A stretch of DNA of 64,000 nucleotides from positions 1 to 64,000 of the forward strand of contig JAHLKH010000071.1 in NCBI GenBank assembly GCA_025526915.1, given 5' to 3'. Position numbers and translations under genes: made by a program. Below, one piece after another: positions 6,548 to 60,741 of the stretch. Numbering within the stretch: the first letter of the stretch is position 1; the number at the start of each line of letters is the position of its first letter. This DNA is from Entophlyctis helioformis (Eukaryota > Chytridiomycota > Chytridiomycetes > Chytridiales > Chytriomycetaceae). The notes under the pieces are model-generated. The model was given only the letters and a program-made list of their open reading frames with translations, was not told the origin of the DNA and did not search any database.

Positions 6548-8203
6548 ATGAGCGACGTGCTGGACAGCAAGGACGTCATCGTCGAGGAAGACAGCGGCCC
6601 AGAGCCCGTGCGTGTGCATGCAGCCAAGGGCGGTGCCGTCGAAGCCGTCCAGGTACCTGCAGCCGTCGAAGCCGAGGTGCTTGCCCACTTACCGCCGCCG
6701 CCGAGCGTCATCCCCGACAACTACATCTCGCCGACCGCCTCTGCGCTGGACGTGACGGCCGGCAGCGACCACCACCTTCAGACGCACACACAGATACAGA
6801 CGCAGACCCACACGCAGACACAGACGCAGACGCACACGCAGACACACACGCATGCCAGCACCATCGCCGCGTCAGACGACGAGCAGCCACACGCCAAACC
6901 GCTGCTCTCGCTCATCTTTGGCACTGGCATCGTCGCTTGCAAACGCCTTGCTGCGCTCGCCCGTCGACTCGGCATCCCCACCGCTCCCGTGCCGTCCTCG
7001 GCCACGTCCCCGCCGGCCGTGTCCTCATCGCCCACCGCGCTCGAGCCCATGCACACGCCCAGCATGGAGCCAATGCGCAGTGCTCCCATCTCCGTGGCAA
7101 CGGGCACGCCATCGCTCGGCTATGTGGCGTCCGGCCCGTTGTCGACGGCCGGCTCCGCGCCGGCATCGTCCGCGGCCCACATGGCAGAGCACGCCTCTCT
7201 CTCGTCGTTTATATGGGACTTTATTGGGCTGGGGACGGGATCCCTGTCGCCGCCTGGCCGAGGTGGCGGCCAAGCCCTTGAAGAAGGCGTACTGGATCTG
7301 CGGTCGTCGAGTGCAGCAGACGCGGCAGGCAGCGGCGTTGGCAGCTGGACGGACAGCAACACGGGCGGCGGATCAGAGGTGGTGGTGGGATCTGCGCCAT
7401 CGGATATCGATGCAGCGTATGCCATGCATGCGTTGACGCTCAACGGCCGGTCATCGACCGTTGATACCGTTGTCCTGACGTTTGATATCGCCAGCGAGGT
7501 AAGCGGCCCGCACCTTTCGTGTCGCCCCACGCGCTTTCTCTGCCAGACCCTGCGCTGACACACCAGAGGCAGATACACTCGTACTTGCCGCCGCTCGTCA
7601 GGGAAGCCAGCTCGCTCGATCTCGTGTACAGCATCGAGCAGCACGGCATCTCGCTGAACACGTTGTACGGCCGGTGTGCCGAGGTTGGCCCGTGTCTGGT
7701 GGCCATCCGCGACGAGAACGGCAACGTGTTTGGTGCATTTGGCAGCCAGGAGCTGGCAGTCGCGGCCGGGTATTTCGGCAACGGCAGCTGGTGAGTCCCT
7801 GTCTCTGCCCCCACGCCTTGTTGCACCGGCGATGATGCGCAGATGCGCGGTGCTCACGCGAGTCGAATGATGCAGTTTCCTGTGGAAGAAGAATAGCGAG
7901 ACTGGAGAAGTGAGCGTGTACCCGGCGACGGGCAAGAACGACTATCTGATGCTGTGCGAATCGCATTGCATTGCTTTGGTGGCGGGTACGTCTGCCCCAT
8001 CTTGGCGTGTCTGTAAGGCAACGATCCACTGATAATCACGGACATGGGATGCATGGCACAGCCAAGGACGGTTTGGTCTGTGGATCGACGACGAGCTGTA
8101 CAACGGACACAGCGAGCCGTGCGAGACGTTTGCAAACGAGGCCTTGTCAAGCACGCCAGACTTTCACATTTTTGCCCTCGAAGTCTGGGCGTTCCAGATC
8201 TAG
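6548..8203 (+). CDS. TLDc domain protein (OXR1/TLDC family)
   Basis: There are four exons: 6548-7498, 7567-7790, 7876-7985 and 8067-8203. The first encodes about 317 disordered residues with a His-Thr-Gln dipeptide tract from a CACA-rich microsatellite. It ends in LTFDIASE, the edge of the TLDc domain. The TLDc fold follows: HSYLPPLVREASSLDLVYSI, then GPCLVAIRDENGNVFGAFGS, CFLWKKNSETGEVSVYPATG, and finally GRFGLWIDDELYNGHSEPCE with FHIFALEVWAF at the end. The final intron acceptor (AAG at 8066) was picked because it gives the canonical VAGGRFGLW join. TLDc proteins protect against oxidative stress and bind or regulate the V-ATPase in several eukaryotes; the exact role here is unknown. Confidence 0.85.
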
Positions 8204-40728: not shown

Positions 40729-43700
40729 ATGTTTTTGACGAAAATGGTCACGAAGATCAGTGTTTCGCTCAAGGCGACGCCTGCGTATGGTGGGTCCTCA
40801 AGTGCCGGCCGGTGCGCCGTGTTGGGCGGGACGGCGCATCTCGCTCTGCATCTCGCTCTGCGTGCCTGTGTGCCTGTGTGCCTGTGTGCCTGCCGACGCC
40901 CTCGATCACAGCCGGCTGACCGCTGCCTGCCCGCTGCCCGCCCGCTGCGTGCTGCCGTCAAACAGGAGCGCTTGCCGTGGCGCACGCCCTTGCGGCACAC
41001 AAGCCGGCCCTCGACGTGCAGACCGTCTTCTCGGCCACGCAGGACAAGGATGCCGTTCTGGCCACCAACGGGTGCGTGTCTGCTGTCTGCTGTCTTGTGG
41101 CCTGCTGGCTGCTGTCCGTCTTGCTTTCGTGCTGCCGGCCGCTCGGTCTGTGCAGCCAGCAGCACCTCGAGTGACGTTGCTGACTGATCTTCTGTTCCCA
41201 TCCCGGCCGGCACGTTTTCTGCAAACGCCGTTGCTCGCCGTCGGTCGACATCGCTCGGCATCGCACGGCGTTGTGCCTGCCTACCTGCCTGCCTGCCCGC
41301 GTGCGGCCCTGTCTGCGTTTATCGTACTGCCCTACAGTACCGAGATCGCCGGCTCCATCGCCGTGTCCCGTGCCCTCGCTGCCCAGTTCCCGGCAGCCGG
41401 TCTCTATGGCAAGAGCGCCGCCGATGCATCGCAGGTGCGTTGTGCCCCAGATCCACGAAGCCGACGATCGGCTACCCGCTGCTTGCTGCCATGACATCCA
41501 TGACACACATGACATCCATGACACACATGACATCCATGACACACATGACATCCATGACGATCCCATGTCACTCACACTCGTGCTGCGCATCCTTCCACGG
41601 ACAGATCGACTACTGGACCGACTTTTCGCTGGACAACATCCCGCCTGCCGGCGACTTCAAGCGCTTATCCGCCACTTTTGACAAGCTCAACAACCACCTG
41701 ACGCTCAAGACATTTATCGTCGGCTACTCGGTCTCTCTCGCCGACTATGCCGTCTGGGGTGCTCTCAAGAGTTCGTCATCTGCCCTGCATGATGGTTTGG
41801 GTTGACTGTGTGCCCAGACTGACGGCTGGCGACCCGGACAGGCAACGCCATCTTCAACAAGCAGCTCAAGGGCGGCAAGTACGATGGCGAGCACCTGATC
41901 CGCTGGTACAACTACGTCGGTGCGCTCGAGCCGGTCAAGACTGCCCTGCAGGCCCTTGAGCGCGCCAAGGATGCGGCCAAGGACCGTCGCGACCAGGGAT
42001 CGTTTGACATTGACCTCCCTGGCGCGTCCGACGGCAACGTGGTCACGCGGTTCCCTCCCGAGCCCAGTGGATACCTGCACATTGGCCACTCCAAGGCTGT
42101 GATCCTCAACGACCAGATCGCCCGTGCCTACAACGGCAAGCTCATTATGCGTTTCGACGACACCAACCCCAGCAAGGAGAAGGTGCGAATGCGCATCCAC
42201 GGGCATGCCAAGCACGCTGTGCACTGTTTGCTGACAGACTTGCTAATGGGTCATGCGATGGACCGGTGACAGGCCGAGTACGAGCAGAGCATTATCGAGG
42301 ATGTCGCGCTCCTTGGAGTCAAGGCCGACGTGATCACGCACACGTCGGACCACTTTGACACCATTTTCAAGTACGCCGAGACGCTCATCAAGATGCACAA
42401 GGCGTACGTGGACGACACCGACCAGGAGACGGTAAGCGCTTGCATGGCTGCCAGGACAGCAGACTGCCATACACTGACGACGGGATGAATTGTCGCCCTT
42501 TTTAGATGCGCGCCGAGCGTTTTGATGGCATCGAGTCCAAGAACCGCAACCTGTCTGTCGACGAGAACCTCCGACGCTTCGAGGAGATGAAGAAGGGCAC
42601 CGAGTTTGTGAGTTTGTTTCCTGCATTGCGCTGGCTGTGATTTTCGGGGCGAGCGAGCCACTAAGCCAGGCGTGGCGTCCATGTCTGCAGGGTCTTACGG
42701 CCTGCCTCCGCGCCAAGATTGACATGTCGGACAAGAACAAGGCCATGCGCGACCCCGTCATCTACCGCTGCAACCTCACGCCGCACCACTACACCGGCAC
42801 CAAGTACAAGGCGTACCCGACGTACGACTTTGCCTGCCCGATTGTGGACTCGCTCGAGGGCGTCACGCACGCTCTTCGCACGATCGAGTACCGCGACCGC
42901 AACGCGCAGTACGCGTGGTTCCTCAAGACGCTCAACCTGCGCTGGGTGCACGTGTGGGACTACAGCCGCCTCAACTTTGTGTACACGCTGCTGTCCAAGC
43001 GCAAGCTCGCGTGGTTTGTCGACGAGGGCCGCGTCACGGGCTGGGACGACCCGCGCTTCCCGACGGTCCGCGGCATCCGTCGCCGCGGCATGACCATTGA
43101 GGCGCTGCGCACGTACATTATCAGCCAGGGAGCGTCGCAGCGCGACATTATGCTCGAGTGGGACAAGCTGTGGGCCACGAACAAGAAGGTCATTGACCCG
43201 ATTGCGCCGCGCCACACGGCCCTTGTCAAGGAGAACCTGTACGTGTCGAGTGCGTGTTGCGTATGGGGGTGGGGTATCATGGCTTGGCGTGCATGGACTG
43301 ACTGGATTGGCTCAATGGATGGGCTTGAGCAGTGTCAAGGTCAAGGTCGTCGGCGAGACGTTTGGCGCGTACACCAAGGCCATGCCCAAGCACAAGAAGA
43401 ACCCCGATGTGGGCATGAAGACCACGACGTTCTCGACGGACCTGCTCATCGAGTACGACGACGCCAAGGACCTCGAGCTGCGCGAGGAGATTACGCTCAT
43501 GGACTGGGGCAACGTCATTGTCAAGTCGATCAGCTTTGGCGAGAGCGGCCGTGTCGAGACGATTGACGTGACGCTCAACCTCGAGGGCGACTTTAAGAAG
43601 ACCAAGAAGAAGATCACGTGGCTGTCGGGTGCGGCCACCAAGGCCGTCGACCAGACGCCGGTGCCGCTGACGCTCCTCGACTACGACTACCTCATCACGA

Positions 43701-45096: not shown

Positions 45097-46637
45097 TCAG
45101 TCCTCGTCCATCTCGTTCGAGAGGGCGGCCTTGGCGAGCCGCTCGGCCTCCTCAGCAATGGCAGCGGGCACGACCTGGTGCTTGCCGCCCGACTCTTGGC
45201 AGATCCATGTGAGCTCGAGCTCAAACTCCTTGTCCTTGGCATCGTCGTGAACCATGTAGATACTGTACAGTGCAGTCAGCCAGCCAGTTAGTCAGCCATT
45301 CAGTTGGAGAGAGATGCGGAGGGATGAGGCTTCCTCCAGCAGGCAGCCGACGCGAATCACCCACATTCTTGCAGCCTCCTTGACAGCATCTCTGGCCGTG
45401 AGCGTTTCAAACTTGAGCTTCTCGAGCTCGGTCTTTGCAACCTGCTTGCCCTTGCCAACAGCGCTCGCGTGGTATCCCTGTCCATGCATTGGTCCTTGAG
45501 TCAACCAGTCCAATCCAAGCGATGGACAGAGTGAGAGAGAGCCAGAGCGCGCGACTCACGTAGTAGACGCCAGAGGGCTCGACCATGAACAGGGCAGGGC
45601 CCTCGTGGTCCATGACTGCAATGAGGGTCGACAGACCAAAGGGACGCACAGACGAGTAGAGCGTAAAGGCCGAGACGTAGGCAGCAACACGCTCAGCCAT
45701 CATCTACCAGACGCGCACAGACGCGGCACGGGCAGGCAGCGAGTTAGAGTGCGATCAACGGGCAGCCGAGGCAGGCAGATAGACAGACAAGGACGATGAG
45801 AGCGATGGCGTAAGAGGGATGCGAACCTTGGAAGGGATGGGCGACTTGTACGTGTCTCTGTAGTTGACGGCTTCTTCGCGGGCACGCGAGACGAGATGAC
45901 GCGAGTCTGCGAGCAGACCAGCACCGACCTGGACGCAGCTGGTTAGCAGCCAGACAGGGATCAGACGCCGAGACGGCGAGGGCAGACCGATAGAGCATAA
46001 GAGAGGGCATGAGAGGACACGCACCATGCCGACGTGCTGGTCGACGGTCTGGATGCGGCGGTTTGAGCCGGGGACGAGCAGCTTGGAGTGGACCAGCTTC
46101 TCGTGGGCGAGCACGACGCCGTCCTTTGTGCGGATGCCGATGCAAGTGCTGCAGGCGGGGCCCGTATGTGAGTTAGTGAGTGAGTTAGTAAGTGTACAGG
46201 TAAGGCGAGGCATAAGCAGCCGCCGCAGGCACGCACGCACGCACCCGCTGTTCTCGACGGCCTTGAGGGCGTACTCGACCTGGAAGATGCGGCCATCGGG
46301 CGAGTATGTCGAGGCCGAGAGGTCGTACTGGGGGGCGAGTGTGCGAGAGTGCGAGTGTGTGAGTAGGAGAGTGTGAGTAGGAGCGAGTGTGTAAGAGAGC
46401 GAGCGAGTGCCTGCCAGGCGAGCCCGGCCAGGGTGTGCATGCGACACGGCACGAGGCCGGCCCGACGCGCAGGCTGCAGCAAGCCTAGCAAGCCTAGCAA
46501 GCCTAGCAAGCTAGCACGGCGCAGCAGGCCGTAAGAAGGCACCCGCAGGCCCCGCACGGCCAGCTGTCCGTGGCAGGCACTCGTCGGAACAGCCGCTCGA
46601 GCAGCGGCCCACTCACGCCGGTGCCGATGGAGCCCAT
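45097..46637 (-). CDS. PSMA3: 20S proteasome subunit alpha-7 (PSMA3)
   Basis: Seven short exons. Exon 1 (46637-46617) is just MGSIGTG, followed by a GTGAGT donor. Exon 2 gives [20 protein letters not shown] then LKAVENSG, the proteasome alpha signature. Next come [54 protein letters not shown], then [20 protein letters not shown] with [10 protein letters not shown]. The end has [39 protein letters not shown] and a C-terminal acidic LSNEMDED. Order and tail match human PSMA3 rather than other alpha subunits. It forms the outer alpha ring. Introns contain simple repeats: gagtgtg-type near 46330-46400, and gcaagccta-type near 46480-46515. It is divergent from SMU1 with 99 bp between starts. Confidence 0.93.
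46477..46516 (-). repeat. 9-bp tandem repeat in PSMA3 intron 1
   Basis: Four or so copies of agcaagcct in tandem within the first intron of the proteasome gene. Confidence 0.7.
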
Positions 46638-46736
46638 TGCGTGCGCGTCTGGTGTTGGTGCTGGACGGAGAGTTGGACGGTTTGCGGGCGAGTTGGTCAA
46701 GTTGGCCTGAGCGCGAGATCCCGCTGCCGCCAGCAA
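46638..46736. promoter_or_regulatory. 99-bp bidirectional spacer PSMA3 / SMU1
   Basis: The divergent ATGs of a proteasome and a spliceosome gene are 99 bp apart. Both genes start with 21-26-nt coding exons followed directly by an intron. Confidence 0.35.
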
Positions 46737-48854
46737 ATGTCGCTCGAGATCGAGAGCGCCGAGTGAGTCTGTTGCGGGTTGGACGTGGTTGTGTGCGTGT
46801 GGTTGTGGGTGTGCACCTCGACTGTGCTTGTGGGTGTGCACGCCGTGTATGCCCCTTATATGCCCCTTATATACTCCTTGCATGCCCACGCCGTGGCTCA
46901 CTCTTGCCCTGCCGCCAGCGTCGTCCGGCTCATCCTGCAGTTTCTCAAGGAGAACAACCTGCTGCGCTCGCTCGCCACGCTGCAGGTGTGTCCGACGGTC
47001 CACTTGCCTGCCTGCCTGCCTGACTGACTGACTGACCATCGACGCAACCGCAGGACGAAACCAACGTCTCGTTCAACACCGTCGACAACGCAGACGCCTT
47101 CAAGGCCGACATCTGCGCCGGCCGCTGGGACGCAGTCCTCAAAACCCTGTCCGCCCTCTCCGTCTCGCCAAAGAAGCTCGTCGACCTGTACGAGCAGATC
47201 ATCCTGGAGCTGATCGAGCAGCGCGAGCTGGTGGCCGCCCGCTCGCTGCTGCGCCAGACAGACCCGTCGCAGATCCTCAAAGACATCTATCCAGACAGGT
47301 ACCTGCATCTCGAAGCGCTCCTGTCGCGCACCTTTTTCGATCCCAACGAGGCGTATCCGACCGGCACCACCAAGGAGAAGCGGCGAAAGGCCATTGCCGA
47401 TGGTACGCTTGTTCGTGCCATCGCTTCCCACTCCCTCCCTGACTCACTCACTTACTCTCCCGCGTCATCGCATCGCGTCGCTTCGCATCGCGTCGCAGCC
47501 CTCTGTGTCGAAGTCGCCGCGGTTCCACCGTCGCGGCTCATGACCATCATTGGCCAGTCAATCAAGTGGCAGACGAGCCAGGGCATCATCAAGGCCGACA
47601 CAGAGTTTGATCTGTTCAAGGGATCCGCACCTGCCGTACAGGTCGAGGAAGACGCCCTGCCTGCACAGTCGATTGCGACGATCAAGTTTCCTCGCAAGCA
47701 GCACGCCGAAGTCGCCGTGTTCTCGCCCGACGGCCAGTTTCTGGTGACTGGCACCGTGGACGGCCTGATTGAAGTGTGGAACTACACCACGGGAAAGCTG
47801 CGCAAGGATCTCAAGTACCAAGCAGAGGCATGCATCCTGTGCTTGCCCGCGTGTCTGGACCGGTGCTGTTGGCTGACGCGATTCAGCACAACAGGACGCC
47901 ATGATGCTCATGGACTCGGCCGTGCTGTCGCTGGCGTTCAACCGCGACAGCGACCTGCTTGCATCCGGCTCACAGGACGGCAAGATCACTGTCTGGAAGA
48001 TTCACACGGGACAGGTCCTCCGACGGTTCCCGACCGCACACAACCAGGGCGTGACGTCGCTGTGTTTTTCGCGCGACGGCTCGCAGGTCCTGTCGGCCAG
48101 TTTCGACACGACCATCAGGTGCGTTGCCATGGACGTGAGCATTCTCTGTGGATCTGACTCTTTGCCGTGGCGATGCCAGATTGCATGGTCTCAAGTCGGG
48201 CAAAACGCTCAAAGAGTTCCGTGGCCATACGTCGTTTGTCAACAAGGCCATCTTCTCGGCTGACGGCGGCCGTGTCATCAGCGGCAGCAGTGACGGCACT
48301 GTCAAGGTACGCACCCCATCCTCGCCTGTTCGCTGGCTCGACCCACCTTCGAAACCAGTCCATGCATCCATTGAAAATGCCCCCCACAGCACATGCCCTG
48401 ACACGCATGCGCGACTCGATGCCAGATCTGGGACACCAAGTCGGCCGACTGCCTGACGACCATTGGCCTGTACGAAGGCAAGGTGGCGCCGCTCGGTGCG
48501 CAGAGCCCGACCATCACCGCCCTTGCGCTCACGCCCAAGAACGACAACCACATCCTCGTGTCCAACCAGAGCCCGTTCCTGTACATCATCTCGCTCAAGG
48601 GCCAGGTGGTCAAGAGCATGACGGTCGAGGACGCCAAGCCGCCCGATATGACGTCGGCCGTCGTGTCCTCCAAGGGCGAGTTTGTCTACGGCTCCGCCGA
48701 GAACGGCCGCGTGTACGTGTTTGGCACCCTGAGCGGCAAGCCCGTGACGTCGCTGCCCGTGTCCAAGACCGAGATCATTGGCCTGGCGCACCACCCGGCA
48801 TCGAATATCCTGGCCGTCTATGCCGACGACGGGCTTGTGCACATTTGGAAATAA
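46737..48854 (+). CDS. SMU1: SMU1 spliceosomal WD40 protein
   Basis: About seven exons starting with a 26-nt exon (46737-46762, MSLEIESA). The LisH motif follows: [25 protein letters not shown]-type region gives [40 protein letters not shown] and [20 protein letters not shown], which is nearly diagnostic of SMU1. Then come [37 protein letters not shown], and WD repeats from [20 protein letters not shown] to [20 protein letters not shown] with a final LVHIWK. SMU1 (with RED/IK) is a B-complex splicing factor needed for efficient splicing of short introns in animals, interesting in a genome with 50-nt introns. No frame breaks are seen within the exons. Confidence 0.93.
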
Positions 48855-49416
48855 ACCCTCCCTCGCGATCCACTGTCTGTAAAACCCTGATACGAAAAGA
48901 CGACAACAGCGTGGAGGTTGGCCGCACAAGAAAAGCGATTCATTCAAGTACAGAGGATGGGCGGCGATCAGAGAGTAGTACAAAGCGAGCGAGAAAGTGA
49001 TGGTGATAGTGGTGGTGTGGCGTCGACGCTTGATGATACAGTTGGCAACCGGTCCGTGTGTGCAGAGAGTGTTGAATGTTTGGCCGTTTGCGGTGCATGC
49101 AAGTCGAGGGTGCTGGCTGTCCTTCCAGACCAAGACGCGGAACAAAGAGATTCAGAAACAGTAGGGGCGGTGTGGGCGGTACCAGAGTACGCAACGAGGT
49201 CGACGGTGGGAAAAAAGGCGGATGGATGGATGGCTGCTAGTGTGGTGCACAAACAGAAACGAGGTGGTGGTGGTGGTCTTGTGATAGGGATGGGGTCGGG
49301 AGTGATGAGGAGGGGGGGGATACGGGCGGGATTATTGAAACAGGTGGGTACGAGATACGTGATACGGGGACGGTGATAAAGGCGAGATGAGATCAGGTGA
49401 CGTCTCCCCCCTCCGA
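48855..49416. other. Convergent spacer, 562 bp, no gene seen
   Basis: It lies between the stop of SMU1 (+) and the stop of the giant repeat gene (-). It contains purine-rich and G-rich stretches near 49262-49320 and no reading frame with family resemblance. It probably holds the two 3' UTRs. Confidence 0.5.
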
Positions 49417-52400
49417 TTACAGGATGATGCAGGCGCAGCCGCCGTTCTTCTCGGTGGTGTCAACGACCTTGACAATCGTCTTGCCGCCAGCCGCCGCCGC
49501 CGTAGTGGTGGTGGTCGTGGTGGTGGTCGTCGTCGTGGCGGGGATCGCGGCCGGCTGGAGCTCAATGACCTCGGTGGTGGTGGTCGCGGTGACGGTCTTG
49601 GACGCGCTGGAAGCGTCAACGGCGACGGCGTCCACAGCGGCAACGGCGGACTTGGACTCGGACGTCTGCACGTCGACAGTCACCAGCTCCTCGCCGTCCA
49701 CGGTCGTGGTCGTGGTGATGGTCTTGGTCGTGACAGTGGTCGTCTCGACAGACTCTTCGATCGCGGCGTTGGCGGCGGCGGTGGCCATGGCGGCGTTGAC
49801 CTCGGCGAGGATCGAGTCTTCGGCAGACTTGGCCTCGGTGGTCGAGACAACAACAGTCTCCTCGGTGGTGGTCTCGGTGGTCGAGACAGCGACAGCGGCA
49901 GCGAGGGCAGCAGCGGCGACGGCATCAGCAGCATCCTGGACAGCCTTGGCCTGGGCAGCCTCGACGCGAACGCGCTCGGCCTCGGCCTCGGCAGCAGCAA
50001 GGGCAGCAGCCTCCTCCGCAAGACGGATACGCTCGGCCTCGGCAGCAGCAGCCGCAGCAATAGCGGCAGCCTCAGCCTCGACACGGAGACGCTCGGCCTC
50101 GACAGCGGCCTCAGCCTCAAGGCGGATGCGCTCAACCTCGGCGGCGGCGGCAGCCTCCTCCTCGAGACGGATACGTTCAGCCTCGGCAGCGGCAAAGGCG
50201 ATCGCCTCCAGACGGAGACGCTCAGCCTCTTCGGCAGCCTTTCTGCGGCGCTCCTTCTCGGCAAGGTAAGCCTCGCGCTCGGCCTGGCTCATTTTCTGTG
50301 ACAGCAACCCCCAGAGTCAGTTCACGGCACATCCAAACACATGCCACAACAAGCACAGCAACACAGGACGTACTCTGAGACGCTGCTCCTCCTCGAAGCG
50401 CTCCATGGCCTCGCGCTGCTTGGTGAGACGCTCCTCGCGAGCACGCTGCTCGTCGCGGAGACGCTGCTCCTCAGCCTCGCGGCGCTGACGCTCCTCCTCG
50501 GCCTTGATCTTCTTGGCGAGCTCAAGCTTGGCAAACGCCTCCTTCTCCTGGGCCTTGAGCGCAGCGTCGCGCTCAAGCTCGGCCTGGCGGGCAGCCTCGC
50601 GCTTGGTGATCTCAAACTGCGTCAGCACAGCCTCCTGGTGGACGAGACGGGCAACACGCTCGCGGTCCTCGCGCTCGCGGGCGAGACGCTGCTGCTCCTT
50701 GCGGAGAGCCTCCTCGCGCTCGAGAGACGCCTTGAGAATCTGCGCCTTTTCAAACGCCTCGGCCTCCTGCTTGCGGAGGGCAGCCTCCTGCTCCTGGCGG
50801 GCACGGGCAAGGTCCTCCTGCTTGCGGTGCTCAAACTCATCCATGGTCTTGGAGCGAGCAGCGTGGCTGTGTACAACACCGGCGTTGCCATGTCGAATGA
50901 TTGTGTTAGTTCATCCATACTACCAAAACGCGTCAAAATTGGTATGAATAGATAGCAACTGCACGTACATCTGGTCCTCAGAGGACACGGTGCGGACAAC
51001 CTGGACAACGGGCTCCTCCGAGCCGTAGCTGGTGGTCGTCGTGGTCGTCGTCTTGGACGAAGCAGCTGCGGAAGCAGCAGCGGCGGCGGCAGCGGCAGCA
51101 GCCTCGGCCTGCTCAGCAAAGAGAGCAGCATCCTTGGCAGCCTCAAAGGCAACCTGCTCAATTGCCTTGCCGTACTCTTCCGTGTCGCGGTCGACCTCGG
51201 ACTCGGTAACCGTCTCGACGCCGTTGACAATCGTGCGCGTGGTCTTGATGACCTTGGTGATCGGTGCAGAGCCGTCGTCGAACGTGGTCGTGAACGTCGT
51301 GTACGTGACAATCACAGTGGTCGTGACAGTCTCCTCAATCTCCTCGTACTCCTCCTCCTCCTCGGCGGCAGGGGCAGCAACGGCGACGGCGTACTGAGCA
51401 TCCGACGCGACAGCGGCAGCAACCTCGGTCTTGTCAATGGTGACATAGCCCTCCTCAATCGACTCGACAACAACCTCCTTGGTCTCGGTCGTCTCGATTG
51501 TCTCGGTGACGGTCGTCTCGGTGGTCTCGACAGCGATCGTCTCAACCTCAACGGCCTTGGTCTCAACAGCATCGATCGTCTCGACGGCGGCAACAACCTC
51601 GGTCTCGGTGACAGTGGTCTCCTCAACAGTGGTGGTCTCGACCTCGGTGACGGTCGTCTCGGTGGTCTCGACAGCGATCGCCTCAACCTCGACGGCCTTG
51701 GTCTCCACAGCCTCGATCGTCTCAACGGCGGCAACAACCTCGGTCGCGGTCGTCTCGATCGTCTCAGTGACGGTGGTCTCGACCTCGGTGACGGTCGTCT
51801 CGGTGGTCTCGACAGCGATCGCCTCAACCTCGACGGCCTTGGTAGCAGTCTCGGTCAGCTCGTCAACGTACTCGTCCTTAGGAATGTCCTTGGCATCAAC
51901 CTCCTTGGACCAGCCGAACAGCAGATCGTAGGCCTTGGTTCCAGCAGCGGCGACACCGTCGGCAACAACCTCGGCAGCATCGCCAAGAGCCTCAGCAACG
52001 TCTTCAGCGACATCGGCAACGGCCTCAGCAACGTCCTCGGCAACGTCAACGACCTTGTCAATGACCGTGTTGTCCTGCTCCTTGAGGTCAGCAGCGGCGA
52101 CGGCCTCGAGCTCAGTGACGGTGGTGGTCTCAACAACAACCTCCTTGGTCGACTCCTCAGTGGCAACGACCTCGACAACCTCGACAGTCTCGACAGTCTC
52201 GGTGGCAGTGGCGTCCGACGCGGTCTTGGCCTTGCCAAAGAACAGGTTGTACGCGGCAGAGCCAACAGCAGTCGCGCCAGCAGCAACACCACCGGCAACA
52301 GCGCCAGCAGCATCACCAACAGCCTCAACGGCATCGCCAGCAACGTCAACGACCTTCTCAATGATCGTGTCGTCCTCGACGGTCTCGGTGACAGTCGTGG

Positions 52401-55400
52401 TCGTCGTGGTGGTCTCGACAGCCTCGACAGCAACAGCCTCAACAGCGACAGTCTCGGTGGTCTCGACAGTCACGGTCTCGACGGCAGTCTCGACGGCAAC
52501 GACCTCGGTCTCGACAGTCTCGGTGGTGATCGTCTCGGTGGTGGTCTCGACAGCAACAGTCTCGACAGCCTCGACAACAACCTCCTTGGTCGACTCCTCA
52601 GTGGCAACGACCTCGACAACCTCGACAGTCTCGACAGTCTCGGTGGCAGTGGCGTCCGACGCGGTCTTGGCCTTGCCAAAGAACAGGTTGTACGCGGCAG
52701 AGCCAACGGCAGTCGCGCCAGCAGCAACACCACCGGCAACAGCGCCAGCAGCATCGCCAACAGCCTCGGCGACATCCTCGGCAACGTCAACGACCTTCTC
52801 GATGATCGTGTCCTCGTCGACGGTCTCGGTGACGGTCGTGGTGGTCGCGGTGGTGGTCTCGACAGCCTCAACAGCGACAGCCTCGACAGCGACAGTCTCG
52901 GTGGTCTCGACAGTCACGGTCTCGACAGTCACGGTCTCGACAGCAGTCTCGACAGCAACGACCTCGGTCTCGACAGTCTCGGTGGTGGTCTCGACAGCGA
53001 CAGTCTCGACAGCCTCGACAACAACCTCCTTGGTCGACTCCTCAGTGGCAACGACCTCGACAACCTCGACAGTCTCGACAGTCTCGGTGGCAGTGGCGTC
53101 CGACGCGGTCTTGGCCTTGCCAAAGAACAGGTTGTACGCGGCAGAGCCAACAGCAGTCGCGCCAGCAGCAACACCACCGGCAACAGCGCCAGCAGCATCA
53201 CCAACAGCCTCAACGGCATCGCCAGCAACGTCAACGACCTTCTCAATGATCGTGTCGTCCTCGACGGTCTCGGTGACAGTCGTGGTCGTCGTGGTGGTCT
53301 CGACAGCCTCGACAGCAACAGCCTCAACAGCGACAGTCTCGGTGGTCTCGACAGTCACGGTCTCGACGGCAGTCTCGACGGCAACGACCTCGGTCTCGAC
53401 AGTCTCGGTGGTGATCGTCTCGGTGGTGGTCTCGACAGCAACAGTCTCGACAGCCTCGACAACAACCTCCTTGGTCGACTCCTCAGTGGCAACGACCTCG
53501 ACAACCTCGACAGTCTCGACAGTCTCGGTGGCAGTGGCGTCCGACGCGGTCTTGGCCTTGCCAAAGAACAGGTTGTACGCGGCAGAGCCAACGGCAGTCG
53601 CGCCAGCAGCAACACCACCGGCAACAGCGCCAGCAGCATCGCCAACAGCCTCGGCGACATCCTCGCAACGTCAACGACCTTCTCAATGATCGTGTCGTCG
53701 TCGACGGTCTCGGTGACGGTCGTGGTCGTCGTGGTGGTGGTCTCGACAGCCTCGACAGCGACAGCCTCAACAGCGACAGTCTCGGTGGTCTCGACAGTCA
53801 CGGTCTCGACAGCAGTCTCGACAGCAACGACCTCGGTCTCGACAGTCTCGGTGGTGATCGTCTCGGTGGTGGTCTCGACAGCAACAGTCTCGACAGCCTC
53901 GACAACAACCTCCTTGGTCGACTCCTCAGTGGCAACGACCTCGACAACCTCGACAGTCTCGACAGTCTCGGTGGCAGTGGCGTCCGACGCGGTCTTGGCC
54001 TTGCCAAAGAACAGGTTGTACGCGGCAGAGCCAACGGCAGTCGCGCCAGCAGCAACACCACCGGCAACAGCGCCAGCAGCATCGCCAACAGCCTCGACGG
54101 CATCGCCAGCAACGTCAACGACCTTCTCAATGATCGTGTCGTCGTCGACGGTCTCGGTGACGGTCGTGGTCGTCGTGGTGGTGGTCTCGACAGCCTCAAC
54201 AGCGACAGCCTCAACGGCGACAGTCTCGGTGGTCTCGACAGTCACGGTCTCGACGCAGTCTCGACGGCAACGACCTCGGTCTCGACAGTCTCGGTGGTGA
54301 TCGTCTCGGTGGTGGTCTCGACAGCAACAGTCTCGACAGCCTCGACAACAACCTCCTTGGTCGACTCCTCGGTGGCAACGACCTCGACAACCTCGACAGT
54401 CTCGACAGTCTCGGTGGCAGTGGCGTCCGACGCGGTCTTGGCCTTGCCAAAGAACAGGTTGTACGCGGCAGAGCCAACAGCAGTCGCGCCAGCAGCAACA
54501 CCACCGGCAACAGCGCCAGCAGCATCGCCAACAGCCTCGACGGCATCGCCGGCAACGTCAACGACCTTCTCAATGATCGTGTCGTCCTCGACGGTCTCGG
54601 TGACAGTCGTGGTCGTCGTGGTGGTGGTCTCGACAGCCTCAACAGCGACAGCCTCAACAGCGACAGTCTCGGTGGTCTCGACAGTCACGGTCTCGACGGC
54701 AGTCTCGACGGCAACGACCTCGGTCTCGACAGTCTCGGTGGTGATCGTCTCGGTGGTGGTCTCGACAGCAACAGTCTCGACAGCCTCGACAACAACCTCC
54801 TTGGTCGACTCCTCAGTGGCAACAACCTCGACAGTCTCGACGGTCTCGACGGTCTCGGTGGCAGTGGCGTCCGACGCGGTCTTGGCCTTGCCAAAGAACA
54901 GGTTGTACGCGGCAGAGCCAACAGCAGTCGCGCCAGCAGCAACACCACCGGCAACAGCGCCAGCAGCATCGCCAACAGCCTCAACGGCATCGCCAGCAAC
55001 GTCAACGACCTTCTCAATGATCGTGTCTCCTCGACGGTCTCGGTGACAGTCGTGGTCGTCGTGGTGGTGGTCTCGACAGCCTCAACAGCGACAGCCTCAA
55101 CAGCGACAGTCTCGGTGGTCTCGACAGTCACGGTCTCGACGGCAGTCTCGACGGCAACGACCTCGGTCTCGACAGTCTCGGTGGTGATCGTCTCGGTGGT
55201 GGTCTCGACAGCAACAGTCTCGACAGCCTCGACAACAACCTCCTTGGTCGACTCCTCAGTGGCAACAACCTCGACAGTCTCGACGGTCTCGACGGTCTCG
55301 GTGGCAGTGGCGTCCGACGCGGTCTTGGCCTTGCCAAAGAACAGGTTGTACGCGGCAGAGCCAACAGCAGTCGCGCCAGCAGCAACACCGCCGGCAACAG

Positions 55401-58400
55401 CGCCAGCAGCATCGCCAACAGCCTCGGCGACATCCTCGGCAACGTCAACGACCTTCTCAATGATCGTGTCCTCGTCGACGGTCTCGGTGACGGTCGTGGT
55501 GGTCGTCGTGGTGGTCTCGACGGCCTCGACAGCGACAGCCTCAACAGCGACAGTCTCGGTGGTCTCGACAGTCACGGTCTCGACGGCAACGACCTCGGTC
55601 TCGACAGTCTCGGTGGTGATCGTCTCGGTGGTGGTCTCGACAGCAACAGTCTCGACAGCCTCGACAACAACCTCCTTGGTCGACTCCTCGGTGGCAACGA
55701 CCTCGACAGTCTCAGTGGTCTCGACGGTCTCGGTGGCAGTGGCGTCCGACGCGGTCTTGGCCTTGCCAAAGAACAGGTTGTACGCGGCAGAGCCAACAGC
55801 AGTCGCGCCAGCAGCAACACCGCCGGCAACAGCGCCAGCAGCATCGCCAACAGCCTCACGGCATCGCCAGCAACGTCAACGACCTTCTCAATGATCGTGT
55901 CGTCCTCGACGGTCTCGGTGACAGTCGTGGTCGTCGTGGTGGTGGTCTCGACAGCCTCGACAGCGACAGCCTCAACAGCGACAGTCTCGGTGGTCTCGAC
56001 AGTCACGGTCTCGACGGCAGTCTCGACAGCAACAACCTCGGTCTCGACAGTCTCGGTGGTGATCGTCTCGGTGGTGGTCTCGACAGCGACAGTCTCGACA
56101 GCCTCGACAACAACCTCCTTGGTCGACTCCTCAGTGGCAACGACCTCGACACCTCGACAGTCTCGACAGTCTCGGTGGCAGTGGCGTCCGACGCGGTCTT
56201 GGCCTTGCCAAAGAACAGGTTGTACGCGGCAGAGCCAACGGCAGTCGCGCCAGCAGCAACACCACCGGCAACAGCGCCAGCAGCATCGCCAACAGCCTCG
56301 GCGACATCCTCGGCAACGTCAACGACCTTCTCAATGATCGTGTCTCTCGACGGTCTCGGTGACAGTCGTGGTCGTCGTGGTGGTGGTCTCGACAGCCTCG
56401 ACAGCGACAGCCTCAACAGCGACAGTCTCGGTGGTCTCGACAGTCACGGTCTCGACGGCAGTCTCGACAGCAACGACCTCGGTCTCGACAGTCTCGGTGG
56501 TGATCGTCTCGGTGGTGGTCTCGACAGCAACAGTCTCGACAGCCTCGACAACAACCTCCTTGGTCGACTCCTCGGTGGCAACGACCTCGACAGTCTCAGT
56601 GGTCTCGACAGTCTCGGTGGCAGTGGCGTCCGACGCGGTCTTGGCCTTGCCAAAGAACAGGTTGTACGCGGCAGAGCCAACAGCAGTCGCGCCAGCAGCA
56701 ACACCACCGGCAACAGCGCCAGCAGCATCGCCAACAGCCTCGGCGACATCCTCGGCAACGTCAACGACCTTCTCAATGATCGTGTCGTCCTCGACGGTCT
56801 CGGTGACAGTCGTGGTCGTCGTGGTGGTGGTCTCGACAGCCTCGACAGCGACAGCCTCAACGGCGACAGTCTCGGTGGTCTCGACAGTCACGGTCTCGAC
56901 AGCAGTCTCGACAGCAACAACCTCGGTCTCGACAGTCTCGGTGGTGATCGTCTCGGTGGTGGTCTCGACAGCGACAGTCTCGACAGCCTCGACAACAACC
57001 TCCTTGGTCGACTCCTCGGTGGCAACAACCTCGACAGTCTCGACAGTCTCGGTGGCAGTGGCGTCCGACGCGGTCTTGGCCTTGCCAAAGAACAGGTTGT
57101 ACGCGGCAGAGCCAACGGCAGTCGCGCCAGCAGCAACACCACCGGCAACAGCGCCAGCAGCATCGCCAACAGCCTCGGCGACATCCTCGGCAACGTCAAC
57201 GACCTTCTCAATGATCGTGTCGTCCTCGACGGTCTCGGTGACAGTCGTGGTCGTCGTGGTGGTCTCGACAGCCTCGACAGCAACAGCCTCAACGGCGACA
57301 GTCTCGGTGGTCTCGACAGTCACGGTCTCGACAGCAGTCTCGACAGCAACAACCTCGGTCTCGACAGTCTCGGTGGTGATCGTCTCGGTGGTGGTCTCGA
57401 CAGCAACAGTCTCGACAGCCTCGACAACAACCTCCTTGGTCGACTCCTCAGTGGCAACGACCTCGACAACCTCGACAGTCTCGACAGTCTCGGTGGCAGT
57501 GGCGTCCGACGCGGTCTTGGCCTTGCCAAAGAACAGGTTGTACGCGGCAGAGCCAACGGCAGTCGCGCCAGCAGCAACACCACCGGCAACAGCGCCAGCA
57601 GCATCGCCAACAGCCTCGGCGACATCCTCGGCAACGTCAACGACCTTCTCAATGATCGTGTCGTCCTCGACGGTCTCGGTGACAGTCGTGGTCGTCGTGG
57701 TGGTGGTCTCGACAGCCTCGACAGCGACAGCCTCAACGGCGACAGTCTCGGTGGTCTCGACAGTCACGGTCTCGACAGCAGTCTCGACAGCAACAACCTC
57801 GGTCTCGACAGTCTCGGTGGTGATCGTCTCGGTGGTGGTCTCGACAGCACAGTCTCGACAGCCTCGACAACAACCTCCTTGGTCGACTCCTCGGTGGCAA
57901 CGACCTCGACAGTCTCCAGTCTCGACAGTCTCGGTGGCAGTGGCGTCCGACGCGGTCTTGGCCTTGCCAAAGAACAGGTTGTACGCGGCAGAGCCAACGG
58001 CAGTCGCGCCAGCAGCAACACCACCGGCAACAGCGCCAGCAGCATCACCAACAGCCTCGGCGACATCCTCGGCAACGTCAACGACCTTCTCAATGATCGT
58101 GTCGTCCTCGACGGTCTCGGTGACAGTCGTGGTCGTCGTGGTGGTCTCGACAGCCTCGACAGCAACAGCCTCAACAGCGACAGTCTCGGTGGTCTCGACA
58201 GTCACGGTCTCGACGGCAGTCTCGACGGCAACGACCTCGGTCTCGACAGTCTCGGTGGTGATCGTCTCGGTGGTGGTCTCGACAGCAACAGTCTCGACAG
58301 CCTCGACAACAACCTCCTTGGTCGACTCCTCAGTGGCAACGACCTCGACAACCTCGACAGTCTCGACAGTCTCGGTGGCAGTGGCGTCCGACGCGGTCTT

Positions 58401-60741
58401 GGCCTTGCCAAAGAACAGGTTGTACGCGGCAGAGCCAACGGCAGTCGCGCCAGCAGCAACACCACCGGCAACAGCGCCAGCAGCATCGCCAACAGCCTCG
58501 GCGACATCCTCGGCAACGTCAACGACCTTCTCAATGATCGTGTCGTCCTCGACGGTCTCGGTGACAGTCGTGGTCGTCGTGGTGGTGGTCTCGACAGCCT
58601 CGACAGCGACAGCCTCAACAGCGACAGTCTCGGTGGTCTCGACAGTCACGGTCTCGACGGCAGTCTCGACGGCAACAACCTCGGTCTCGACAGTCTCGGT
58701 GGTGATCGTCTCGGTGGTGGTCTCGACAGCGACAGTCTCGACAGCCTCGACAACAACCTCCTTGGTCGACTCCTCAGTGGCAACGACCTCGACAACCTCG
58801 ACAGTCTCGACGTCTCGGTGGCAGTGGCGTCCGACGCGGTCTTGGCCTTGCCAAAGAACAGGTTGTACGCGGCAGAGCCAACAGCAGTCGCGCCAGCAGC
58901 AACACCGCCGGCAACAGCGCCAGCAGCATCGCCAACAGCCTCGGCGACATCCTCGGCAACGTCAACGACCTTCTCAATGATCGTGTCCTCGTCGACGGTC
59001 TCGGTGACAGTCGTGGTGGTCGTGGTGGTGGTCTCGACAGCCTCGACAGCGACAGCCTCAACAGCGACAGTCTCGGTGGTCTCGACGGTCACAGCCTCGG
59101 CAGCGCCGTACGACTGGACAATGTCAAGCGTGGCGTCCTCGACAACAGTCTCGACGGCAACAGCCTCGGTGACAATCTCCTTGGTGGCAGTCTCGACAGC
59201 GACAGTCTCGACAGCGACAGCCGCAACGACCGTCTCGGTAGCAGTGGTGGTGTCAACAAGCTCGACCTTGGGAGCAAACGAGAACGTCACGTCAAACTTG
59301 GGGGCAGCCGACGCGACCGTCTCGACAGCCGTGTCCACAGCGGTGCTGACCGTCTCCGTGGCAACGCCATCAGCCGAGACAGCAGTGGTGGTGGTGGTGG
59401 TCGTAGTGGTGGTCGTGGTCACGTCCTCGCCAGCGACCGTCACAGTCTCGTAGGCAGACTCGACGTCGGCCGAGCCGATCGACGCGACCGAAGCCGCGAG
59501 AAGCGTCTCGTCGGCAATGAGCACCTCGGACGACGAATCGGCGTCGTTCTCGATGGTGGTAGCAGCCACGCCAGCGGTCGAGGTGGTGGTCGTGGTGGTG
59601 GTGGTGTAGGTGGTTTCATGAGGGATTTTTTCGGTTTTGTTCGACGTCTCAACGTTGACGGTGGTCACTGTTGGTGGGTGTGTGCGTGCGATTGGTGTGC
59701 ACCAGGACGACGGAGTGTGATGAGTCAGCAACCAATTGGATCACGCCATGGGTCCACACGGTGGCCAGCTGACCACGCCGGTCGGCTGGCCGGAGAAATG
59801 GATCATGCAGCAAAGGGCAGAGCAGCGAGGAGCACTTACGCGACGAAGCGCTCGAGGGGACGACGGTCTCGCCCTTGGCCTCCACCTCGCGCAGGACAGT
59901 ACGCGTGGTGGTGACGGGGACAAGGACCTTCTTCGAGCGAAGCGTCTTGATGGCAATCTTCTTGTTGCCAGCCTCGTCAACGGTGGTGGTCTTGATGGTC
60001 GTGACCTGTTCGTCGCCGTCCATGACGACGGTGGTCTCGACAAGAGGTTCAGGGATAGTAGCCTGGCAGCCGGCGGCGGTTCACGGCGGTTCACGGCGGT
60101 TCAAGGCAAGTCATGGGAGCGGCAGCGGGCACGGATCGTGGGCGTCGCAGGTGGTGGCCGCAACCAAGGAGCGGCAGCGGGCAGGAAGCGGCAGGAAGCG
60201 GCAGGAAGCGGCAGGGCAGATAAGCGGCCGACAGAAGCGAGTGTGGCAGCAGGAGTGGCCGGCGGACGGGCCAAAAGGGGGCGCAAAACAAAAAAATGAC
60301 GCCAGGGACAGGGCAGAGCGGCGCAGGGCGGGCGGGACGGTGAAGCGTAGATGTGTGAGCGCATGAAACAGGAGGTGGCGGCGGGCAGCGGGGGCGAGAG
60401 GGCAGCGGGGGCGAGAGGGCAGGCGGTCGGCAGGTGAGTGTGCAGCGCGTGTGCACCAGCGCACACTTGGTGCACACTGCGCTGACAGGCCGACAGGGCG
60501 ACAGGCAGACTCAACGAGCGCATGTGCGGATGCCGCCGGTCGCTGGCCGAGCCCACGCGGCAATACGCCGCAGTGCATGCCAGGGCAGATGCAGGGCGGC
60601 TGCCGGTGCGACGAGGGGCGGCCGGGCGGCCGGACGGGCAGGAACCGGAGCCGGTGCACAGCGGCAGAAGGCAACATGGCAGGCAAGCAAGCGAGCGAGC
60701 GGGCAGACAAGGCCGAGCGGTGCACTTACAGCGCCAAGCAT
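49417..60741 (-). CDS. Giant tandem-repeat protein with coiled coil and CaaX box
   Basis: Unrecognised family; about 3,400 residues inferred. A 12-nt first exon (60741-60730, MLGA), a 667-nt intron, then exon 2 (60062-about 59840: ATIPEPLVETTVVMDGDEQV...) and exon 3 from about 59670, which holds the repeats. The N-terminal part is Thr/Val rich (runs of Thr). Between about 59090 and 52090 lie 16 units of about 147 aa plus a diverged 17th at about 51990-51850. Each unit has an acidic Val/Glu/Thr stretch and an Ala/Gly-rich helix ending AAYNLFFGKAKTASD. After it come acidic VETT repeats, a Tyr/Thr block (VTYTTFTTTFDDGSAPITKV), a charged coiled coil (about 50870-50310; EEERQRREAEEQRLRDEQRA), an AEAERIRLEEE-type coil, and the terminus NGGCACIIL. 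The final CIIL is a CaaX box (Leu favours geranylgeranylation), with a nearby Cys for palmitoylation. It is probably a membrane-tethered cortical or filament protein (inference). One-base shifts occur in several units. Confidence 0.72.
52090..59090 (-). repeat. 16 near-identical ~444-bp tandem units (coding)
   Basis: The anchor aacaggttgtacgcggcag recurs at 52241, 52682, 53126, 53567, 54010, 54453, 54897, 55340, 55772, 56213, 56656, 57091, 57532, 57973, 58413 and 58857. Most spacings are 441 or 444 bp, with 432 and 435 as in-frame variants. Five spacings of 443 and one of 440 break the triplet count. Units differ at few positions, so the array looks recently expanded or homogenised. True copy number may differ from the assembly. 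Confidence 0.92.
60063..60729 (-). other. First intron of the giant repeat gene
   Basis: A 667-nt intron with donor GTAAGT and acceptor CTGCCAG, the longest seen in the window. It contains tandem gcaggaagcg copies near 60180-60215 and GC-rich simple sequence. No separate gene was recognised. Confidence 0.55.

Follow-up and report, generated by a model that had tools for sequence, protein, structure and literature searches.

What kind of protein is specified by an 11-kb gene that is built around near-identical tandem units and ends in a lipid-anchor-type motif? The question is raised by positions 60741-49417 (minus strand) of a 64,000-nt stretch of the chytrid Entophlyctis helioformis (contig JAHLKH010000071.1, positions 1 to 64,000; the whole stretch is called the window below). 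The gene is real: it has five exons, joined across GT-AG introns of 667, 172, 102 and 78 bp with consistent phases, and a coding length of ~3,435 codons including the stop, frame breaks ignored. With a probability of roughly 55%, we take it to encode a cytosolic, membrane-anchored coiled-coil scaffold whose anchor-distal part was enlarged by a lineage-specific repeat array. On sequence comparison, it is a member of an undescribed chytrid protein family without a Pfam entry, whose conserved part is the coil and the tail.

The five exons, all on the minus strand, were assembled from different kinds of evidence. Exon 1 (60730..60741; MLGA) is called from splice signals and phase alone and is unsupported by any relative, and exon 2 (59840..60062) holds a conserved N-terminal module, MDGDEQVTTIKTTTVDEAGNKKIAIKTLRSKKVLVPV (~60023-59913), recognized from GT-AG boundaries, phases and alignment with Homolaphlyctis polyrhiza. 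Exon 3 (50969..59667; reading frame, unit alignment and splice signals) comprises a Thr-rich lead, the 16-unit array, a degenerate unit 17, Val/Thr/Glu (V/T/E) repeats and a beta module; the conserved module EEEYEEIEETVTTTVIVTYTTFTTTFDDGSAPITKVIKTTRTIVNGVETVTESEV lies at approximately 51195..51363, as judged by alignment with Homolaphlyctis and Batrachochytrium salamandrivorans, the counterpart in the latter being predicted as a beta sheet. Exon 4 (50374..50866; alignment, lag test and genome search) encodes the conserved helical core with a tandem duplication of 73 aa, followed in exon 5 (49417..50295; splice signals and relatives) by the core end (KMSQAEREAYL), an Ala/Glu-rich helix and a Thr-rich tail. 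The C terminus reads ...EKNGGCACIIL, with the stop codon at 49419-49417; the gene model and a comparison of tails thus place the CaaX box CIIL, the additional Cys two residues before it and the stop codon at 49417..49437. The first-pass annotation had raised the possibility that the CaaX exon belongs to another gene. It is part of the array gene, because relatives align straight through the exon 3/4 and 4/5 junctions: DQIHAARSK here corresponds to DDIHDVRAK in Homolaphlyctis across the exon 3/4 junction, and RFEEEQRLRKMSQAEREAYL here to RFEEDQRLKKMSASDRKEYL in B. salamandrivorans at the second junction of this pair. With the unit, exon 5 and two relatives as queries, this locus was the sole match in the genome.

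The relatives were reached stepwise. Used as a query, 900 residues of exon 3 retrieved a single protein at E 0.01, from Homolaphlyctis polyrhiza, whose gene model continues from Ada3 into a relative of the array gene that lacks the array; a two-row profile added a Fimicolochytrium relative, and a three-row profile with low-complexity sequence masked gave eight relatives at E <= 0.01, all eight containing the helical core. Because both profile searches scored only the 7,989-7,992 candidates sharing most words, at lengths of 432-1375 aa, long array-bearing relatives may be missed; Batrachochytrium dendrobatidis was absent among the eight matches of this word-prefiltered, length-restricted search. 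The relatives are BASA60_000446 and BASA62_000208 (B. salamandrivorans), EV422DRAFT_274179 (Fimicolochytrium jonesii), PhCBS80983_g05710 (Powellomyces hirtus), HDU88_004377 (Geranomyces variabilis), HDU67_001898 (Dinochytrium kinnereticum), HPOL_004880-RA (Homolaphlyctis polyrhiza) and P0009, the first seven coming from six Chytridiomycota species in three orders (Rhizophydiales, Spizellomycetales and Chytridiales). The view that no family of such a layout is known therefore did not survive the masked profile search: coil and tail are conserved, and it is the array that is new. The core is 55% identical to that of B. salamandrivorans over 163 residues and in the array gene matches itself at a lag of 73 (26 of 73 residues identical; 0 of 2000 shuffles as good). 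The same duplication was found in all eight cores tested, i.e. the array gene and seven relatives, the core of the B. salamandrivorans protein P0005 not being tested separately (0 of 2000 shuffles each), and in all eight a lag of 73 was the best of lags 60-89. Furthermore, Homolaphlyctis and the array gene share the N-terminal module and a DDGSAP-type module, the latter also present in B. salamandrivorans. As a set, the relatives point to Chytridiomycota as the origin of the gene, and the modules and tail in common point to Rhizophydiales.

The anticipated CaaX tail with its extra Cys was borne out by this comparison. By the CaaX rule, the Cys stands at -4, the next two residues are aliphatic and Leu as X marks a substrate of geranylgeranyltransferase I (GGTase-I); the predicted tail follows this rule, with CIIL at the extreme end of the last exon. 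Seven of the eight relatives have, like the array gene, a CaaX box closely preceded by one or two Cys (KCACIIL twice, CCKGCSIM, CGCIVM, CSCTIQ, CCEKCIVM and CAACAIL; of the eight tails tested, array gene included, seven were positive, and the P0005 tail is the same as that of P0004), and the CACIIL tail is identical in the array gene and B. salamandrivorans. The two B. salamandrivorans proteins themselves, P0004 and P0005, are database versions that carry three and two copies, respectively, of a 15-aa repeat, EKAYKEAEAEAAAAA, and also differ further on. A Pfam scan of five pieces of the gene, rather than of the whole protein, detected no family above the cut-off, and a scan of seven relatives detected no named family except in fused neighbours; filament, lamin-tail and paralemmin domains did not appear in these scans. 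In the open-access literature, the family was not found under the topics of CaaX proteins with giant repeats, chytrid prenylation or paralemmins, nor under the accession names of six relatives (HDU67_001898 not among these), the literature on chytrids, prenylation, CaaX and zoospores having been judged by titles.

The array itself spans 52102..58987 and, from repeat detection, unit alignment and AlphaFold2, consists of 16 units (15 full) of 147-148 aa, each an Ala/Gly helix ending in LFFG followed by ~100 aa of acidic V/T/E chain. The unit anchor occurs 16 times at a spacing of 432-444 bp, and Tandem Repeats Finder (TRF) reports a 443-bp period in 15.8 copies with a score of 12557, far above chance. 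Pairwise DNA identity among the 15 full units has a median of 97.3% (range 88.5-100% over 105 pairs, the lowest value being one with u14, in which an in-frame rearrangement misaligns ~16 codons). The single ~11-kb gene with 16 near-identical units described in the first-pass annotation was thereby recovered in its copies and their likeness, while its array, broken by nine deletions, is not one reading frame as assembled. The sixteenth unit follows the pattern for ~90 aa and then departs, and after the array lies the degenerate unit 17 (score 123; shuffled sequences averaged 34, and none of 2000 scored as high). The acidic character proposed for the unit was confirmed: the 148-aa consensus contains 34 V, 34 T, 26 E and 26 A and has a net charge of -28. 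Adjacent units are somewhat more similar than distant ones, the trend with distance not being steady (mean differences of 9.4 at lag 1, 15.0 at lag 7 and 9.7 at lag 8, u14 excluded). Unequal exchange or conversion across the whole array fits these data, since similarity falls unsteadily with lag and units 2 and 13 have zero substitutions between them. The copy number in the assembly may be inexact.

As to the origin of the unit, the N terminus of the B. salamandrivorans protein, SGASAAAGTTLAAGAAVEGSSLFRKFFGYKTAAAAEALDG, aligns with the unit helix, including the FFG end, at a score of 60 (shuffles 29.6 +/- 5.6; 0 of 2000 as high), and the unit helix compared with the whole B. salamandrivorans protein likewise exceeded all 300 shuffles. 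In the six other relatives the helix had no clear match and FFG was not found, the helix score being equalled by 28 of 300 shuffles for Homolaphlyctis, 9 of 300 for Powellomyces and 112-246 of 300 for the other four. The helix-FFG module is thus seen in one likely copy and only in the two B. salamandrivorans proteins among the eight relatives; degenerate unit 17 resembles their N terminus weakly (62 of 2000 shuffles). The 16-unit array was seen in none of the eight relatives, which measure 538-954 aa compared with about 3,430 aa for the array protein, of which the array adds ~2,295 residues. A single-copy precursor of the unit, as in B. salamandrivorans, is likely, and the array probably arose when this older module was amplified in one lineage.

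Structure prediction located the rod elsewhere than had been proposed. AlphaFold2, run without an alignment on two intact units (mean predicted local distance difference test (pLDDT) 51), gave helices at residues 2-45 and 147-195, i.e. 44-49 aa per unit, with a pLDDT of 66-78 in the best blocks, 45-50 in the last block of each helix and 32-54 elsewhere, that is, in V/T/E sequence. The array as a rod or spring is therefore not what the model depicts, and the predicted rod is instead the downstream coil: for the B. salamandrivorans relative (ten alignment rows; mean pLDDT 59.5), residues 123-201 are predicted as a beta module (pLDDT of blocks 53-84), helices span 262-433 and 436-537 (83-96 in the blocks covering 271-530) and the tail stays below 50. 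At 0.15 nm per residue this rod would measure ~41 nm. A fold search yielded no confident match. Within the unit helix, residues 1-21 are amphipathic (hydrophobic moment 0.54) and the first 18 residues carry a net charge of -5, while the second half, in which the moment falls to <=0.2, is Gly/Ala-rich, nearly uncharged and ends in LFFG.

A membrane-anchored scaffold would combine these parts as follows. The conserved core and the sequence downstream of it are predicted to form one long hinged helical rod of ~40 nm, followed by a disordered tail. As the conserved motif suggests, this tail would carry a prenyl group (geranylgeranyl, as X is Leu) and a palmitoyl group on the nearby Cys, and the lipid anchor would hold the protein on the cytosolic face of a membrane. 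At the other end, the 16 units, each comprising a 44-49-aa helix and ~100 aa of flexible acidic sequence, may act as a strongly negative polymer brush or tether; from residue counts its contour length is some 0.6-0.7 μm, and its actual form would be far more compact. The helices, amphipathic in the first half and Gly/Ala-rich with LFFG in the second, may serve as weak stickers that set membrane spacing or gather partners or copies of the protein itself. A more specific proposal, which we regard as a long shot, is a dual-lipid-anchored giant tether or coat with a ~40 nm rod, whose single ancestral helix-FFG module, after ~16-fold amplification and homogenisation, would form a multivalent brush of helices with a contour of several hundred nm and organise a chytrid membrane compartment such as the zoospore cortex or the lipid-globule complex.

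Several observations weigh against a scaffold of this kind. The Homolaphlyctis model ends in FLSFFKKN, without CaaX box or array; it may be wrong, since it is fused to Ada3 and the assembly is described as short-read and fragmented (PMC12204190), yet it counts on this side. The beta module and the helix-FFG module were seen only in the Rhizophydiales matches, and coiled-coil cores are prone to chance similarity, the matches here also sharing MSxxxREAYL and the tail. An acidic array beside acidic membrane lipids is an odd choice. As assembled, moreover, the array is spread over all three minus-strand frames, because nine deletions of 1-2 bases, as judged from the other units, break the frame in eight of the 15 full units (u1, u3 (two, jointly restoring the frame), u6, u7, u8, u9, u11 and u13); outside the array, none falls in the 3,420 bases of coding sequence (P = 0.027 under uniform placing of nine). 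Of 32 column changes among units, 22 are synonymous in the gene frame and 10 alter the residue (P = 1e-6, 27% being expected; P = 5e-5 with the 34% expected for transitions alone), as counted in 14 of the 15 full units (u14 left out) with changes within four columns of a gap skipped, and these P values assume independent changes, an independence lowered by the shared descent of the units. With u14 included, its rearrangement being misaligned, the count is 23 kinds of synonymous and 21 kinds of non-synonymous codon change. Because a gene decaying by nine frameshifts should lose this synonymous bias, we infer that the breaks are consensus errors in an array unpolishable by short reads, rather than gene decay.

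Rather unlikely, in our judgement, is that the array is far shorter in the cell or is spliced out, the protein then being an ordinary family member with one or few units. The array-free relatives, the single helix module of the two B. salamandrivorans proteins and the confinement of all nine frame breaks to the array would agree with this; against it, synonymous variants combine differently between units, as true copies would, and exon 3 passes through the array into the conserved module with no intron needed. Doubtful too is a lipid-surface coat, in which the 16 helices would cover a lipid droplet or bilayer one after another, as perilipin 4 does, and the lipid tail would fasten the protein to a nearby membrane, of which the zoospore lipid-globule complex offers an example. 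The amphipathic first half of the helix suits such a coat, and perilipin 4 likewise uses many short weak helices in a long protein of near-identical tandem units (PMC5889406). A long continuous amphipathic helix over the repeat was not found, however: only 44-49 of ~147 residues per unit are predicted helical in a model of moderate confidence, the rest being acidic and flexible, the moment drops in the second half, and the helix is negatively charged. The array protein also differs from perilipin 4 in its coil and CaaX tail, and a perilipin domain was not among the Pfam matches in the five gene pieces.

It is quite improbable that the Ala/Gly-rich helix halves work as a glycine-zipper array, inserting in the membrane or packing into large assemblies. 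GxxxG spacing occurs in AGAVAGGVAAGATAVGSAAYNLFFG, along with windows that carry no net charge, but the mean hydrophobicity of the second half (0.26-0.56, Fauchere-Pliska) is low for a transmembrane span, and no partner or fold match was found. Outright decay, with real frameshifts and a protein stopping in unit 1, would account for the nine deletions of the assembly and is very improbable given the synonymous bias, the intact exons before and after the array and the CACIIL tail matching that of B. salamandrivorans. Coding of a Ser/Thr/Val-rich protein on the other strand can be all but set aside: plus-strand frames are open for up to 1,092 aa, and in one of them 25 of these changes are synonymous and 7 are not, its wobble positions coinciding with those of the gene frame, so that the bias cannot decide the strand, which is decided by the flanking exons and by the relatives, matching the minus strand, where an open frame of 916 codons extends from unit 13 as far as the conserved module and the splice donor. 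The open frames opposite the array lie at 56175-59453 and are partly Ser/Thr/Val-rich.

CaaX-tailed coiled-coil proteins are a known kind, represented by lamins and paralemmins, the latter also with neighbouring Cys residues. The array protein resembles them in joining a coiled coil to a C-terminal CaaX box and differs in its module order, its large repeat array and the lack of a Pfam match to a named family. As far as the eight relatives show, the large homogenised array appears new within the chytrid coil-CaaX family. Chytrid zoospores are wall-less cells, and to our knowledge little has been described of their membrane scaffolds. The comparison outlines a family across three orders that lacks a Pfam entry and has a conserved tail of the lipid-anchor type, and the probable single-copy precursor in B. 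salamandrivorans makes the origin and effect of the amplification testable by comparing species.

Directly upstream of the array gene, on the same strand, lies Ada3 (PF10198; 61259-62465), a separate gene with its own C terminus and stop at ~61260; the Ada3 fusion in Homolaphlyctis is for this reason probably a gene-model error, and the upstream neighbour is shared by the two species. The model of the Dinochytrium kinnereticum relative (P0008) also contains an HCNGP domain (PF07818, residues 143-231), which gene prediction may have fused in from a neighbour. Elsewhere in the window, 45755-49000 holds a proteasome alpha subunit on the minus strand and, on the plus strand, a WD40 protein that resembles SMU1, and a perfect 18-bp tandem repeat, CATGACATCCATGACACA, is present in 3.8 copies at 41490-41558.

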